Source of the DNA: Myxocyprinus asiaticus
Taxonomy: Eukaryota > Chordata > Actinopteri > Cypriniformes > Catostomidae
Direction of reading: 5' to 3'
Assembly: GCF_019703515.2 (NCBI RefSeq)
Contig: NC_059373.1
Span: 17,684,281 to 17,748,280 of the forward strand
Length of the DNA stretch: 64,000 bases
Shown here one piece after another: positions 36,728 through 60,563 of the stretch (positions are counted from its first letter, which is position 1; every line of letters starts with the position of its first letter). The notes under the pieces were generated by a model, which had not been told where the DNA came from, did no database searches, and saw only the letters and a list, made by a program, of their open reading frames with translations. A program made the position numbers and the translations under genes.

Positions 36728-39700
36728 TTATGCTGAGTGGTAATGGTGATGATGATGATGGTGATGATGATGCTCATGGTGATGATGGTGCTCGTGCCTT
36801 TGAGGAATGGACATAAAGCCACAAGCAGGGACAGCTGGCCCAGGCTGCAACTCTCTGTCCAAGCCCTGGTTGCCTTTGGAAGGTGATGTGGTCTCACGGG
36901 CCCTGGCACGGATGCGTTTGCTGGAGCTGTGCAGCATAGGAGGCTGCGTTTGCTGCTGGGATGGATGGCACCAGTTGACAGGGTGATGCCCATGGAGCTT
37001 GCTGGGTTTGGCTGTAGCTCCACTGCCACCGACAGACTTGCTGCGGTTGCGGAGTGACCTGAGGAAAGAAATGGACCTCCCAGAATATTCCACAGGGCTT
37101 GAGGTCTCGGTCTGAGAGCAACGGTGATGGCCACGGAATGGGCTGTCCCGTCGCTGCTCCTCAGCAGATTGTTCTGAAGATATTAGAGTCAGATAAATCA
37201 TTATGAAAGCTCAAAAAATCTCATCTTCAACCAGACCTCACTAAACATTTAGAGACATGCAATGACTTGTATGTTTTTAATTGAACTGCAAAAGCTGAAT
37301 GTAACCAAGAGCATTTGAGAGGACATTGTAAGTGCAGATCTGCAGAATGGGAATGAGATTGAGATGAAGATACCAGAAACAACTTGTTACATTATGTTTG
37401 GTCATGGTAAACCTGAAATGAGTTTGGCCTTCACAACACTGAGTTCAGCAATTTTTCCTGACCTTTATGAAAAATATTCAGTGGCTATTTCATATTGGAA
37501 AAAAAGCAAAGAAATATTGTGAAGTTACCAGCATCAAATCTTGAGGTGTAATTCTCAGTCCCAGCCAGATCAAGATAGTGGTTCCTACGTTCTGTGTTTT
37601 CATCAACAGGGTAGTGCTTTTTGTCTAGATCACCCATCTGGCTTCTGACAGAGGTAAATGAAAGAAAATTGTTACTTATTTTAATCAAATATAATTTTCA
37701 TTCCTGTACTCATATTCTTTTTAATTTTGTATTGTAGTCTTGTGCATCTGGTTAAATAATTAATTAGGGGCTTTCTGCATCAAAGTTTTCTTAATAATAT
37801 GACACACTCATTTGTATTTAATAATGACTTGGTGCTTTTTACCTAATTTGAACATGATGACTTTCTGCACACCGTATTGTTCCCTCCATTTGATCTTGCT
37901 CATTATGAGATATCCCAATGTCCCGATCTTAAGGATTAAGACAAAAGCAAATTTAAGTCAGTGATATTGCATTGTGATCATTATCTCTGTAAAATGAACC
38001 AATAGTACCTACACAAAACAAAATAAGACAATATATTCCTGATAATTCCAGGTTCAGTCCACCTTTTCTGTTGCCTCTGGTTAATGGGGTGACACTCAGC
38101 TTCACACGCAGGGTTGTGCCATTGCTAAGAACCACCTGTTTGACTGACATCTCCACCACCTCATAGATCGCATGCATCAAGCTCAACATATTCTGCAACA
38201 AACACATAGAGAGAAACTCACCAATAATGGATTTGTGTACCATTGTAATAATGAAACAGTGGACTGCCATTTGTTTAAGCATTACCTCTTTGGTCACTTT
38301 GCCGTTGCTGTCAAAATCGTACAATGTGATCATCCACTCATGATGATTATCATCCATAGACATAATACACTCCACATCCTGATATCAACGTCACAAAAAT
38401 GTAAGAGGAAGATAATTGCTTCATTTTGGTATCAGAATGACAACATGTTTATTAATCAAGATTCAGTTGCCCCAAAAAACACATGAATATCATTGCATTA
38501 GAAAACAAAGTATCAAATCAACTAAAAAGAAATGATAGAGCTTTTCTCAATACTAACTTCACTGTTTCTATTCATTTTTGCTATAACTCTTAACTAACTG
38601 GTCACAAGGTCATTTTTAATGGATGTACAGTATACGCTTACTATAACAACATTTTTACGTGCTGAGTTTTACATGCCACGTTCTACGTTTTGCCACAGTT
38701 TCATGGTGAAATTAACACTTGAGATGAGATGCTTTAAGCGTTTTATTCACTTTCACACACATCACGAGTACAACGGCTGGTTATGATTTTATAAACACTT
38801 ATTTTTCGCTCTATTACTCGCACATTGCTATGTTATGATATCAAAACACTTTTACTTCTTAAGGCATCATTTGAAAAACAATTCATTTTAACACTTGTAT
38901 TACAGACTCACCTACATTTACACACTTATTCCAAAGTGATTATTTCCCATGGTAGCTCACCTGATAGAGTGTTGGACTTTTAGACTCGGAAGACCCTCAG
39001 TTCGAGCCCAGTCAAGCACGCAATCTGACACGAGACGAAAATGTCAAAGCAGCGACACAAAATGACGTGCTTTTGCAAATGTTGCGTTTGATTTTGGACT
39101 CTATCGGTTGGCTCAGGTGTTGGTATAACACATATAGTGTTGGTATGTCTGTTTTGTTCACCTCTCATTTGCTTTTAGGACACTGTTAGGTTTAGGTTAA
39201 TGTTTTAAGTTAAGGAGGTCCGTTTTATTCATTAAAACCTCCATCGAACATTCACTTCAAAAACCTGGTTACGAAGCCATTTCACTCGCTTTTAGCGCCC
39301 CTCATAGGACATTTCACTGGGAAAAAGCAGTGAAACCTGTAATCAAGCACGTAATTTCGTTTAGCAAAATGTTGCCTCGGTCATGCAATTTTCATAAGAT
39401 CCGGCTGATAAAATCAGTTCCCCTCACCACAGGTATAGTTCATCACATTCACTCAACTGTATGGACATGTTCCACTAATGTTTGACAACCAGAAACTGTC
39501 CAAATACTTTTGTCTTAATTTTGAAAACATCAATTATTTTATCATCTAAAACATATATTTATTGTTTTATTTGAAAAGTGTTCTTGTGCCACTTGGTTTT
39601 TTATTTGGTTATATTATACAAAGACGTCCAAACATTTTTAAATGTGGCTTTAGCATCCAAATACTTTTGGGGGCCACTGGATCTTACAACTTAGAAAACA

Positions 39701-53265: not shown

Positions 53266-53631
53266 GGTTATGACAAATATTAATTAACGAGTAATTTATG
53301 TGTTTATGTTCTCACTCGTGTACTTTTTCCAGTGTTATGTTATTCCATTTCACTTTACCTTGACAGTTAATGCAGTTATGGAGACTACAAAGTAGGCTAG
53401 TCAAACAGGCAGAAATATGAAATGGACCATACACATTCAGTAAAATCTGAAGTTGTTTCTCAAAAATATTCTCGCTAAGATTAAATGTTTTAGATACAAT
53501 TTTAATCTTTCCCTAACCGTTTGATTTGAGTGAATGTTGGAGATGGCAGGAGTCAATCAATGTCAAGGATATCCCCTCACAAAACTTAATTACTTCACAA
53601 TTTATGTACTATTTTCCTATGATCTTGGCTT

Positions 53632-53668: not shown

Positions 53669-53754
53669 CACTTGAGCTGTGTCTCAAAACCTAGATAGCT
53701 GCCTACCTAGGCAGCATTTTTGGGAGAGTTGATTTGCTCAGAGATGCTGTCTAG

Positions 53755-54160
53755 GGGGGCCTGGGTATCTCAGCGAGTATTGACGTTGACTACCATTCCT
53801 GGAGTCGCCAGTTTGAATCCATGGTGTGCTGAGTGACTCCAGCCAGGTCTCCTAAGCAACCAAATTGGCCTGGTTGCTAGGGAGGGTAGTCTCACATGGG
53901 GTAACCTCCTCATGGTTACTATAATGTGGTTCTCGCTCTTGGTGGTGCACGTGGTGAGTTGTGTGTGGATGCAGCGGAGAATAGCGTGAAGCCTCCACAC
54001 GTGCTAGGTCTCTGCGGTAACACGCTCAACAAGCCATGTGATAAGATTGATGGTCTCAGACGCGGAGGCAACTGAGATTCGTCCTCCGCCACCCGGATTG
54101 AGGAGAGTGACTACGCCACCACGAGGACTTAGAGCACATTGGGAATTGGGCATTCCAAAT
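53755..54160 (+). repeat. tRNA-derived SINE, full-length copy
   Basis: The head GGGGGCCTGGGTATCTCAGC is followed by a B-box-like GTTTGAATCC at 53812-53821. The tRNA-unrelated body includes GACTCCAGCCAGGTCTCC and CACCCGGATTGAGGAG. The tail is GAATTGGGCATTCCAAAT. A 5'-truncated copy lies at 60218 and a head fragment at 76-113. Polymerase III promoter inferred from the boxes. Confidence 0.7.
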
Positions 54161-54436
54161 GCTGTCTAGGTAGGTAGACAGCACACTAGGTTTAGAGCTT
54201 AGATGATAGCATGTAGCGAAATGAAATGAAGCTTGTTTCTGTTTGCACATGCAGGATGACTTGGTCAATGAAAACAACTTCATTGTTGGTTTGATGGACC
54301 ATTTCTTCCGTTTCGTCACAAAGAGTTGTGTTGTCATCGACATCATAATTTTTGCCCTCCAAATGAACACGTGCTTTTCACAGGTGAGAAATATTATCTT
54401 TATCTGCGCATGTCCAATAATCTCACATGACGTATT

Positions 54437-55014
54437 AAAGGAATATTCTGGGTTCAATACAATTTAAATTTAAATGACAGCATTTGTTAAATAATGTTGG
54501 TTACCACAAAAATGTATTTTGACTTGTTACTTCCTTTTCTTAAAATTTAAATTAAATTAAAATCTGGGTTAAGTAATACACTTAGAATGGATGTGAATGG
54601 GGCCAATCAATTTATAGCCACAAGACGTAAACAATGCATGATTTTAGTGTGATAAAATTGCATACTAACCTTTTCTGTGTAGTTCTATTCAATTTTGCAA
54701 CTTTGTTGCCATGACGACATAATGCCATAAACCCTAAAAAAGGATTGAAACAACTTTTACAGCTCAAATTATACAAAAGTTTTAACAGAATATTTTATGC
54801 GTCCATTAATAAAATTATAAACTTCACAATTCTGCCTTTAAATCCTCCAAATATTGGCCACATTCACTTCCATTGTAAGTGTCTCACTGTAACCTCGATT
54901 GTTGTTTTTAAGGAAAAGGAGGGACATGTCAAATTTATTTTTGTGGTACTTAACATTGTTACAAATGTTGTTGATTGAGCTAAACTTGTATTAAACCCAG
55001 TATATTCCATTAAA
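54437..55014. mobile_element. Long-inverted-repeat MITE (AATATTCC family), catsper4 intron
   Basis: Left AAAGGAATATTCTGGGTTCA, right TTAAACCCAGTATATTCC. Inner mirrored blocks GGATGTGAATGGGGCCA and GGCCACATTCACTTCC. Sits between the S1 and S2 exons. Confidence 0.75.
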
Positions 55015-56242
55015 TTTTAAGATGTATTAATTTAACATGGTACTTTTTTTATTTATTTATTCTTTCAGGAATTTGCATTTTCGCTATATGTATGTAAACA
55101 CATTATTTTCACCATCTTTGTATGGGAAGTTCTGGCCAAGCGGTGTTGTGGTTTCAAGATTTTTTGGAGGGTACCATTTCCATTTTTTCCCTATTAAAGC
55201 CAGTGTTTTCACTTAACCTCTTGTTACCTCCAAACACTGCATCGTGCAATTCTCTAAATACTTCTTCATGCTGTTTTCAAACCTTTCAAATCTATTATTC
55301 CCCATAATGACTTTTGTGCCATATTTTTTAATCCCTCTAGAACTGGTGGAACATTACAAACTTCTTGATGACCCTTGCTCTCATTTTTGGATGCTGGATA
55401 ATCAGTGATTCCAACACCCTTAAGATGTACAGGTGTGGAATATGAGCTTTCAACACTGTCACAGAGCTTATGAAAATATTACTAACTAGCAGAATAATGT
55501 CTTATGTATTCAGAAGTTTCTTCCACGAGTATGCTTAGGTTAACTTCTCAAATTGGCTTTTTAGGGTTGTACGTATGATTGGTATCACCAGATGCTTTGC
55601 ATCCATGCAAGGCATGGTCAGGACAGTTAAGGGTCATCACAAAATCCATAGCAAACAAAAATGTTCTTTCTCCTTTTTCTTCTCTTCATGCTGGTATGTC
55701 TACACGTTTACACATTCATTTTTATATAGCTTCTGTTTAGATGCACCAACTAAAATGGTGCATCTTCTTTGTTTGGTTCTTTTTCAGGTGTATGCTGTTT
55801 GCTGAGTTTACCTGTTTAGTACTGCAGTTTCATCAGCCTATGGAAATCTATCTTCCTCCTCTTACACTTTGTTTTTCTGTTTAACACAAGATGGGTGGAC
55901 AGCCATCTTTAGGAAGTTTGAAGAGTAAGCTATATTATTATATTCTGCTTTCCAGAAACTTTCACAAGAATACCTTTTTGTACTTTGCATTTTTATCTTC
56001 TGCGGTACCCTCATTTTTGGATTTTTTGATGCCATTTACATAGGCAATCTGCACGTCAAAGCCAGACCAAACAGAGCAACAAAGTCCAACAGTGAATGCC
56101 GCCTCTAAAGTATTTCTGGAATATGTCAGTGATATGAGTCAGAGAGAGAGAGAGAGCGAGAGAGAACAACTCAAATGTTTATTTCCACTTTTTTACTTGT
56201 AGGTGCTTTTGAAAAACCAAAGAATCCTTTAAGGAATTCCTT

Positions 56243-56780
56243 TAAAGGAATATTCTCATTTCAATACAAGTTAAGCTTAACAGACAACATTTGAGGCATA
56301 ATGTTGATACCACAAAAATGTAATTTGACTCACTTTGTTAAAAAAGTTCAAATCTGGGTTCCAGTAATGCACTTACAATGAAAGTGAATGGGGCCAATCA
56401 GTAAAGGTTAAAATACTAACTTTTTCAAAAGTATATCCTCAAAATGTAAACAGTATGTGTTAACATGATTTCAGTGCGATAACACTGCTTACTTATATTT
56501 ACAGTGTAAAGTTATATCCAATTTTACAACTTTGTTGCAATGACGGAGTAATGCCGTAAACCCTTTTAACAGAAGAATTAATGCAAGTGCTTTTATAAAA
56601 TTTTAAGCTTCACATTTCTACCTTTACACCTTCCAAAAATTGGTCCCATTCACTTTCATTGTACCTCAATTTTAGCTTTTTTTTTTAAGGAATACAAGGG
56701 ATGAGTCTAACTGAATTTTGGTTGTAATCAACTTAATGCCACTAATGCTGTGGATTGAGCTTAACTTGTATTGAACCACA
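56243..56780. mobile_element. Long-inverted-repeat MITE (AATATTCC family), catsper4 intron
   Basis: Left AAAGGAATATTCTCATTTCA, with AATGAAAGTGAATGGGGCC, centre near 56510, then TGGTCCCATTCACTTTC. The right side fades out at ATTGAACCACA, so the right terminus is degraded. Lies between the S6 and coiled-coil exons. Confidence 0.65.
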
Positions 56781-57733
56781 TTTGCACATAGTGCTTGCTA
56801 AGGCAACCATAACTTGGAACAAGAATAACATGGATACTTGGGGATGGGCTCTTTTTAAATGGGCCAATAAGCAACCACCCAGAACACCCTTGTAAAACTC
56901 TTAAAACAACTCAGAACACCTCAGCATTTTGGCAGAAAGATTTGCATGGGCAAGCACCACTCACATTTTCTTCAGAAAATGGGAAATATAGTTTAGAATT
57001 TAAAAAACTGTCATGTTTTAACACATAAACTGGAAATGCTATAGGACAGTGCCATACTCGAGGAGATGATAAAGAAAACCAATATGACCAAGCGTCAAAA
57101 GACATTAAAGAGTGGCTACCTAAAGAACCTAACAATAGACACCTATGAGGATTTGGTACTTGTTATTTCAAAGATACAGAGGAACCTAGATGAATGCTTG
57201 GAGACTCATCAAGAGCTAGAAAAGTATGTTTCAATGTAGAAGAAATAAATACAAAATTTAAAAATATATGCATTATACTGGTTAACTGTAGGTACTCACT
57301 GGTTAACTGTTTGTGGAAATGGGCAAGAAATCAAATCTGTTAATATCTTCAATGTCTTACAGGATTGTAGAGGAGGTGCATAAAAGAAAGCATGAGCAGG
57401 GGACTTCGGTGTATAGAAAAACTCTCTCCCTGGAGAAGAATCTAATAAATGAGCTTGCCACTGGAGACATACTCTCCACACTTATCAACTTGGACAAGGT
57501 GAGTTCCAGATATATTCTAAACATTTAACAAAGAATCTTTTGTAGCCTTTGCCCAATAAAATATAGGCAGAAATACATACTTGCTCACATCCTCATCATT
57601 CAGTTTCAGATTAAATTGAATATCAAGTCATAAAATGAGTTGGAGTCTGTTTCAGGCACACATCTTAGACACCAGCACAGCCTCACCACACCTGAACAGG
57701 GGCATGATATTTCACGCTGCTAAACAAATTTAA

Positions 57734-58228
57734 ACCTCATCTCAAGCAGACTCTCTTCTCTCAGCCACTGGAAACACAAACACTTATAAGGCAAAAACTG
57801 AGTGGTACAAAGTAATATTTTTATAAATTTTTATATACACTTCTTGTCTGAATAAAGATTTAAGCACATAAAAGGGCTTAGCTGAACTCTTTATTCAGGG
57901 AATATCTGCTACAAAACTGTCACTCTGAATTTTTTGTTACATATTAACTGTACTTGATGTTTCCATTTTGAATTTGAAGTCCAAGGCTCAGTGTAGACTA
58001 CTGCGACTCCACTGGATCCCAGTCAAAAATGCTCATGAATATTCTTTACATTGAGTTTTAAATGTATTTGTAGAAAATTTACTTTATGGTCAATGGCCAA
58101 TATATCCTGATCCAAACATAACTGCTTTCATATGTCTGTTCAGTATTTGTTATTGGATTGAATTGTCTTTTCAAAACAAAACAAAAAAGTTCAGTCAGTT
58201 CAGTCTGATCATCATTTAAGTGTTAACT
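57734..58228. other. Convergent 3' ends of catsper4 and gatad1
   Basis: Fewer than 500 bases separate the two stop codons. AATAAA at 57851-57856 (plus) and TTTATT at 57890-57895 (AATAAA on the minus strand) are the plausible poly(A) signals, so the two 3' regions may overlap. Confidence 0.45.
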
Positions 58229-59581
58229 TCACCCAACAGTTTCTTTGATGGCAACAGCAGGTGTTGGTCCTATATGAGTCCAGATGTAGCCTTTTTCTGG
58301 ACAAACCGGTATTGTTGGGAAAGGGCAACTCCTTGATTTGAAATACTCTGATGGAGCATGACAGACAAACTCCAGGTATTCCATTTTTCTTGGCAAGTCC
58401 TCTTCTGGGCCTATGTAAAGAAATAAATGCATTTATATAGTCAGTCATAAATGAAACTTAAAAAAATTATCTTAAACATGCTCTGAATAAGGCATATGAC
58501 AGTCCTGGTGATGCATCCAGTTTGGCCAAGTAAATTCAAATTTCCTTTAAGAATATGGCAGATACACTTTTTGTAGATTTGACATTATATTAAAGGGATA
58601 GTTCAACCAAAATTGGTAAAAAAAAATAAAAAATTCTCTCATCATCTACTCACCTATCCTTCTGCAGAACACAAATGAAGAATATTCACAATACTCAGGT
58701 CCATATAATGCAAGTGAATGGTGAACAGACATCAGGAGGTCCAAAAAGGACATAAAAGCAATCCAAAAGGTGGGAGATTTATAGTAAAAATGGGTTCCTC
58801 CCACACATATCATATCACTTCTGAAGACTTGGATTTAACCACTGGATTAATTATTTTATACTGCCTTAGGTCCTTTTTGGAGTTCTGGTCACCATTCACT
58901 TGCATTGTAAGGAGCTACAGAGCTGAGATATTCTTATAAAAATCTTTGTTTCTATTCTGCAGAAGAAAGTCATACACATCTGGGATGGCATGAGGGTGAG
59001 TAAATGATGAGAATTTTGTGCATGAACTTACCAACAATGTAAGTGCCTGGATCAAACCGATCTCGTGGACTGGCCTGAGTTGGGATCAGCCACGTTAATG
59101 CAGCACTCTTCTCACAGTACTGGTCCTGGACGAAACCACGAATCTGTGCAAAATACGGTTTCCCATCGTCCTCATCTATAACTTTAATGACATCTCCTAT
59201 TTGATAGTAGACACCCTAATCACAAGGAGTGCAAGTTTGTGAATACAACGAACGTGGCAGTGAGAAAAACATTTTGAACAAAGGAGAGAAGTTACCTTGA
59301 AAAACATGGACTCCGACGTAATGATCGTCGACACGGACTCCGGTGCTTTGATTGGCTGCAGAATTTGAGGACATAAAGAATACATTTTTAAATATTTTAT
59401 TACACCTTACAGATATTGGGATAAAATCCATACACAAGACCGAATGAAAAGCACGTACATTTTTCAATTTGAAAATGTGTCGTCTACCCTTTCCTTTGGT
59501 TGAAACTTTTTTCTCAGATGCTGGCGCTTTGTACTTGGTGCTCCGTAACCGAGCTGAGCGTCTATGTATCTCCTGTTTGGA
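58229..59581 (-). CDS. gatad1: GATA zinc finger domain-containing protein 1, 5'-incomplete
   Basis: Chromatin-associated factor that joins complexes recognising H3K4me3. Minus-strand exons: 59581-59459, 59355-59296, 59215-59032 and 58410-58229, giving 182 residues in frame to TGA (58229-58231). The order follows the human protein: KQEIHRRSARLRSTKYKAP, GKGRRHIFKLKN, PIKAPESVSTIIT, GVYYQIGDVIKVIDEDDGK, FVQDQYCEKSAALTWLIPT, GPEEDLPRKMEYLEFVCHAP and EKGYIWTHIGPTPAVAIKE. The end (ETVG) is a few residues shorter than the human VANHL end. The exon with the GATA finger (about 86 residues) is not in the 4.4 kb upstream and must lie beyond the right edge. Intron 4 contains a MITE (58592-59020). Confidence 0.94.
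58592..59020. mobile_element. Long-inverted-repeat MITE (TTCACCC family), gatad1 intron
   Basis: Left AAAGGGATAGTTCAACCAAA, right GGCATGAGGGTGAGTAAATG. Mirrored CATATAATGCAAGTGAATGG and CCATTCACTTGCATTGTAAG. The right end abuts the GTTGG/GTAAG donor of gatad1 exon 4 within about 20 bases. Confidence 0.7.
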
Positions 59582-60217: not shown

Positions 60218-60480
60218 TGTGTAATGCGTGGTTCTTGCTCTCGGTGGGGCGCGTGGCGAGTAGTGCATGGATGCCAAGGAGAATAGTGTGGGCCTCCATA
60301 TGTGCTTTGTCTCCGCGGTAACGCGCTCAACAAGCCACGTGATAAGATGCACAGATTGACGGTCTCAGACGCGAAGGCAACGGAGATTCATCCTCCGCCA
60401 CCCGGATTGAGGCAAGTCACTACGCCACCATGAGGACTTAGAGCGCATTGGGAATTGGGCATTCCAAATTGGGGAGAAAA
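60218..60480 (+). repeat. tRNA-derived SINE, 5'-truncated copy
   Basis: It matches the body of the 53755 SINE from GTGGTTCTTGCTCTCGGTGG to the tail GAATTGGGCATTCCAAATTG, lacking the tRNA-like head. 5' truncation is the normal outcome of incomplete reverse transcription. Confidence 0.7.
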
Positions 60481-60498
60481 TCAAAAAGAAAAAAGAAA

Positions 60499-60563
60499 AA
60501 GTAAAGAGTAGACAGAATTATTTATTTCAGCTTTTATTTCTTTCATCACATTCCCATTGGGTA
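60499..60563. mobile_element. Solo fragment of Sleeping-Beauty-like Tc1 end
   Basis: AATTATTTATTTCAGCTTTT followed by CTTTCATCACATTCCCATTG equals the sub-terminal region of the 44159 element (44317-44366). No other part of that element is nearby. Confidence 0.6.

Follow-up and report, generated by a model that had tools for sequence, protein, structure and literature searches.

A decayed catsper4 copy in Myxocyprinus asiaticus and its open partner, most likely a pair left by whole-genome duplication

In the parts of the literature consulted here, CatSpers are reported to be lacking in teleosts (Cai and Clapham 2008, PMC2572835), zebrafish is reported to be without CatSper (PMC6660944, PMC4749565), and models of fish sperm motility have been built on this absence (PMC2572835, PMC4749565). 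CatSper was found in three ray-finned fishes, with none in zebrafish (Romero and Nishigaki 2019, PMC6660944), and two later papers refer to CatSper in salmon (PMC9603624, PMC8004680); among the titles and abstract openings of the open-access literature, we found no published report of CatSper in a cypriniform. Metazoans with CatSper are stated to have soluble adenylyl cyclase (sAC), with no exception (PMC6660944), and a paper of 2026 describes cypriniforms, zebrafish among them, as missing sAC (PMC12867704). Decay of a CatSper duplicate has been described in primates, where a lineage-specific duplicate of CATSPER2 turned into a pseudogene, and it was suggested in that connection that a heterotetramer needs one of each subunit, making duplicates excessive (Cai and Clapham 2008, PMC2572835). 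Finally, the consulted parts of a study of suckers (Catostomidae) describe a genome duplication common to the family, with 50 chromosomes in 25 pairs, a genome of 2.58 Gb and a Ks duplication peak of 0.184 in Myxocyprinus, in which 44.6% of BUSCO genes are single and 53.7% are complete and duplicated (PMC8412299, Table 1).

The locus described here lies in a window of 64,000 nucleotides, i.e., the whole stretch of DNA that was analyzed (C30:17684281-17748280; the genome amounts to 2.34 Gb in 345 contigs). Positions 54255-57733 of this window are a relic of catsper4, the true start of the gene lying further upstream, near 53543. A DNA search with window 54200-57800 returned, besides the locus itself and many copies of a dispersed repeat, collinear matches on the minus strand of a second chromosome (C34:27160482-27165722). 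The C34 region aligns with the window over both the gene and its flanks, and GATAD1 adjoins both copies. Read against this second copy, the window contains the following features:

53543..53584, plus strand: relic of catsper4 exon 1, with its ATG at 53543-53545, a 26-bp deletion relative to C34 and the GT donor gone (placed by alignment)
54255..54383, plus strand: exon 2, S1, open; the sole difference in length from C34 is a 3-bp in-frame deletion
55069..55170, plus strand: exon 3, S2, open (alignment to C34)
55341..55432, plus strand: exon 4, S3, open (alignment to C34)
55565..55693, plus strand: exon 5, S4-S5; against C34, one base is inserted near 55627-55635 and two are missing between 55657 and 55658
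55788..55924, plus strand: exon 6, the end of S5 and the pore loop, with TGA at 55803-55805 where C34 has GGG
55972..56109, plus strand: relic of exon 7, S6; a 92-bp deletion at 55971/55972 took the acceptor and the start of the exon
55987/55988 and 56054/56055, plus strand: further lesions of the exon 7 relic, a 1-bp and a 2-bp deletion, respectively (alignment to C34)
57045..57223, plus strand: exon 8, C-terminal, open, with a 6-bp in-frame insertion
57363..57498, plus strand: exon 9, C-terminal coiled-coil region, open (alignment to C34)
57656..57733, plus strand: exon 10 to TAA 57731-57733, open; C34 continues for 27 residues beyond, an equivocal lesion
57851..57856, plus strand: AATAAA, with the same signal at the corresponding point in C34 (alignment)

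Eight lesions in the window copy are clear, and none of the eight is present in C34 when the two are aligned: the 26-bp deletion and donor loss in exon 1, the 1-bp insertion and 2-bp deletion in exon 5, the nonsense codon in exon 6, and the 92-bp deletion (with the acceptor), 1-bp deletion and 2-bp deletion in exon 7, the last two of which split S6 over two frames. The in-frame differences in exons 2 and 8 were excluded from this count, and a ninth candidate, the TAA at 57731-57733, was left uncounted because the recorded cyprinid CatSper4 proteins stop at about the same place. Thus, while the pore motif TQDGW is still readable in exon 6, the S1-S6 frame expected of a functional CatSper4 gene is interrupted, and the window copy has the properties of an unprocessed pseudogene: retained introns, disabling lesions and an intact relative. 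We considered splicing or read-through past the breaks, and rejected it, as no open reading frame reaches from S5 to S6 when the frames are inspected by eye; a processed copy was likewise rejected, as introns are present.

The preliminary description, made from the window alone, had already recognized a decayed, intron-bearing catsper4, and its account of the breaks is borne out: the splice phases close across the S1-S4 exons (54255-54383, 55069-55170, 55341-55432 and 55565 onward), the last three exons are open, the S5 exon holds two frame changes, TGA stands exactly at 55803-55805 in the pore exon, and S6 lies in two frames. The set of exon-like blocks that it listed is real, but it missed the exon 1 relic and the 92-bp deletion of the S6 acceptor. 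It had also placed the gene between nkd2 and gatad1. GATAD1 indeed lies downstream (58232-59581, minus strand), and NKD2-like exons lie upstream (37515-38375, minus strand, from tblastn with human proteins); a stretch near 51.7 kb, read by eye only, is presumably the first exon of NKD2. The introns at window 54435-55014 and 56242-56778 contain a dispersed element of ~560 bp, whose ends are mutually inverted matches and which has many genomic copies. Windows 53750-54160 and 60240-60500, compared by eye, have SINE-like sequence in common, the former stretch being within intron 1, which is far shorter in C34.

The identity of the locus is clear from both copies. The top two PDB matches of the joined window S1-S4 pieces are CatSper4 chains (9ubw_D, E 8.3e-07, and 7eeb_D, E 1.3e-06), with bacterial sodium channels ranking behind them (E 2.8e-05), and CatSper4 is the best channel match of either copy. 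The C34 locus (27160451-27166026, minus strand) yields a model of 10 exons and 1287 nt encoding 428 aa, with no internal stops and nine introns that are all GT-AG; this model was made by comparison, and its exon 1 was placed from the splice signals and a brief match at the N-terminus. Residues 9-340 of its product match residues 33-383 of mouse CatSper4 (E 8.5e-43), spanning both the exon 1 stretch, which aligns with the mouse N-terminus, and the C-terminal motif, and the S1-S6 frame is unbroken with the pore motif T-x-D-x-W. In neutral simulations that started from the C34 frame, none of 2000 runs with 0.10 changes per site and an assumed indel rate of 8% of substitutions remained intact; 0.05% and 3.1% did so at 0.06 and 0.03 changes per site with indels, and 1.7% were stop-free at 0.10 changes per site with substitutions only.

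Compared to mouse CATSPER4 (7eeb_D) and the CatSper4-like proteins of Alosa, Carassius and Labeo, the C34 copy likewise has S1-S6, TQDGW, the N-terminus and the C-terminal motif; the window copy, on the other hand, is broken, and the cypriniform copies are without the S6 Asn. Seven CatSper4-like fish proteins are present in a large protein collection, from Alosa, Carassius, Labeo, Cirrhinus, Cyprinus, Hucho and Lota, and in an alignment of eight fish CatSper4 sequences the column of the conserved S6 Asn is gapped in all five cypriniform rows (C34 included) but holds Asn in Alosa, Hucho and Lota. The cypriniform S6 has a one-residue deletion at this position, with FDA..GN in its place (exon 7, C34:27163676-27163835 and window 55972-56109). 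If the loss of the Asn was a single change, it would be older than the split of the sucker from the cyprinids. All four cyprinid models are incomplete in S1-S6, as Cirrhinus and Cyprinus are without S1-S2, Carassius is without part of S2 and Labeo without part of S6, gaps which may reflect faulty models, isoforms or decay. We infer expression of the C34 gene and a working channel as its product; this open gene may still encode an altered channel, as the cypriniform S6 is without the conserved Asn.

The divergence of the two copies speaks to the origin of the pair. Over 354 usable codons (range 24 to 402, which leaves out exon 1 and everything beyond codon 402), we obtained a Ks of 0.205, a Ka of 0.094 and an omega of 0.46 (bootstrap 95% 0.31-0.70); these values replace an earlier omega of 0.61 (with 46 window, 23 C34 and 20 unresolved of 89), in which badly aligned ends had been included. 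Among the 70 codons with a nonsynonymous difference, polarization by outgroups assigned 37 to the window copy and 20 to C34, with 13 unresolved, a modest imbalance (binomial p 0.033), and the corresponding omega values are ~0.60 for the window and ~0.32 for C34, both approximate as Ks was split evenly. If C34 represents the constrained rate, the window copy would have been free for about four tenths of its branch, a figure that, with so few changes, is only a guide. In the tree, the window and C34 copies pair with each other (100/99) to the exclusion of Carassius, Labeo and Cirrhinus, their branches being 0.17 and 0.077 long, respectively; a separation of the CatSper4 clade of eight rows from CatSper1-3 is tentative, with a support of 89/94, which is below the star level of the tool, with long branches and a window row that fills 36% of the columns. 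The two copies thus have flanking genes in common and a Ks near the sucker peak of 0.184, as is expected of a whole-genome-duplicate pair, and, given this Ks, the loss of the window copy looks like duplicate loss after polyploidy. The size of the genome and its paired loci also agree with a catostomid. Likewise, the catostomid Cat-4R duplicate genes lie on paired chromosomes with similar Ks (PMC8412299), in a paper which, in the parts consulted for comparison, does not mention CatSper.

Taking these observations together, the window locus is very probably a decayed homeolog, left by a doubling of catsper4 that most likely involved the whole genome, with the C34 partner presumably carrying the function. 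For the window copy, this is an ordinary outcome of polyploidy, in which a spare copy was lost and not the fish's only catsper4. Genome doubling would have produced two catsper4 copies, on C30 and C34; as the heterotetramer takes one of each pore subunit, one gene per subunit would suffice, and the spare C30 copy, once freed, would have taken on deletions, an insertion and a nonsense change. Spare copies of catsper2, catsper3 and catsperb, at the least, have gone the same way, whichever chromosome of a pair they lay on, the duplicates probably being lost as extra subunits are useless or harmful. In the case of the primate CATSPER2 duplicate, a spare CatSper gene likewise decayed with its partner kept, but here the duplication appears to be genome-wide, with several subunit genes doubled together.

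Loci for the other pore subunits, catsper1, 2 and 3, as well as for catsperb and catsperg, are present in this genome. Human CatSper1-3 queries gave exon-by-exon matches with 36-49% identity in the good ones. We note that the open stretches of these subunits come from tblastn matches and not from full gene models, and that some of the matches meet stops where they extend beyond an exon edge or over an intron. For catsper1 there is one locus, on C14, with four exon cores open; a genome DNA search with 951 bases of catsper1 DNA found no second locus, and a match on C13 was rejected as its homeolog since it reads, by eye, as an exon of a T-type calcium channel. The catsper2 copy on C46 is open in eight exon cores, while its homeolog (C48:14524731-14526856) is decayed, its pore exon containing both TAG and TGA; the C48 sequence compared starts at roughly the place of the S1-S3 exons, which are accordingly not counted as lost. 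On C38, catsper3 is open in three cores, and in its C40 copy the exon following S2 is shortened by deletions of 15 and 28 bp; conversely, catsperb is open in four exons on C40, and on C38 it shows deletions of 5 bp, of 1 bp plus 2 bp with intervening stops, and, in a neighbouring exon-like stretch, of 11 bp. Losses between C38 and C40 are therefore bidirectional. One locus was found for catsperg, on C3, and the catsperd profile (Pfam PF15020) had no match in the genome, nor any in the controls, and is thus uninformative.

Within the exon stretches examined, a second open copy was seen for none of the six subunit genes found, and for four of these (catsper2, 3, 4 and b) a dead and an open copy form a pair. 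With the published BUSCO proportions, a non-neutral sample of genes, as a rough baseline, the chance of single copies would be ~0.04 for the four with a known dead copy and ~0.009 for all six, the latter counting catsper1 and catsperg, each known from one locus, as single; both values are a pointer only. By contrast, near-full channel-domain matches form 12 matching stop-free pairs on C9/C12 (4), C28/C29 (5) and C46/C48 (3), again a pointer only, as these chromosome sets were hand-picked, pairs were made by score and place by eye among the matches listed, and such channel genes may have a higher than usual rate of retention.

A different picture was obtained for two further sperm proteins. A search with human sAC (residues 1-469) returned nothing significant in the genome (best E 0.09), and the search for the sperm Na+/H+ exchanger with human SLC9C1 gave no convincing match, the best (E 0.003) being at the voltage-sensor part, with five of the six best places coinciding with channel-domain matches. 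The human sAC query shares 42% identity with a protein of Hucho, in a match covering 55% of the query, and 43% with one of Callorhinchus; because of this identity, and as human CatSper1-3 were detected at 36-49%, a retained sAC should have been detected. No cypriniform sAC was named among the 120 of 287 protein matches listed, within a limited range of protein length. Absence of sAC from this genome is likely but not proven, judging from searches with the human query only.

The preliminary description took the broken gene to be the catsper4 of the species in the course of being lost, and one that could help to date the loss of CatSper. A loss in progress across the lineage, with both catsper4 copies and their partners on the way out, would account for the dead window copy and the dead copies of catsper2, catsper3 and catsperb, and would be in keeping with the reported state of zebrafish (PMC6660944, PMC4749565, in the parts consulted), with the odd cypriniform S6 and the parts missing from the cyprinid models, and with the failure to match sAC and the exchanger convincingly. 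However, catsper4 is intact on C34 with an approximate omega of 0.32, and one copy each of catsper1, 2, 3 and b is open over the exon stretches covered, so that we consider such a loss improbable. With an open and complete homeolog on C34 and the other subunit loci in the genome, the claim of a datable loss finds no support, and CatSper does not seem to be wholly lost among cypriniforms, given the CatSper4-like proteins recorded for Carassius, Labeo, Cirrhinus and Cyprinus, even if these models are partly incomplete. That the C30 gene is in truth intact, and seems broken through faults of assembly or sequencing, is very improbable: several of the lesions are indeed 1-2 bp indels, but the 26-bp and 92-bp deletions, the lost donor and the nonsense codon are atypical of read errors, and amino-acid change in the window copy is about twice that of C34. 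Hardly credible is a six-transmembrane channel other than CatSper4, which was named at the outset as a possible refutation, since, despite the bacterial sodium channel matches of the window S1-S4 pieces, CatSper4 ranks best for both copies, the C-terminal match to mouse CatSper4 falls outside the channel domain, and the copies tend to group with fish CatSper4 proteins.

With the window copy read as a spare homeolog, it is the retained complex and the likely absence of sAC, rather than the broken gene, that hold the interest. This genome retains loci for four pore genes and two accessory ones, against the reported absence of CatSper from teleosts, and, if sAC is truly absent, CatSper exists in this fish without sAC, against the published rule. 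In addition, the duplication offers a natural test of what subunit dosage means for an obligate heteromer. We therefore put forward, tentatively and with more doubt than conviction, that some freshwater cypriniforms may have a complete but modified CatSper, in which the S6 Asn is gone, without sAC and the sperm Na+/H+ exchanger, and that the whole complex may have returned after the doubling to one gene per subunit, as a fixed heterotetramer would demand.
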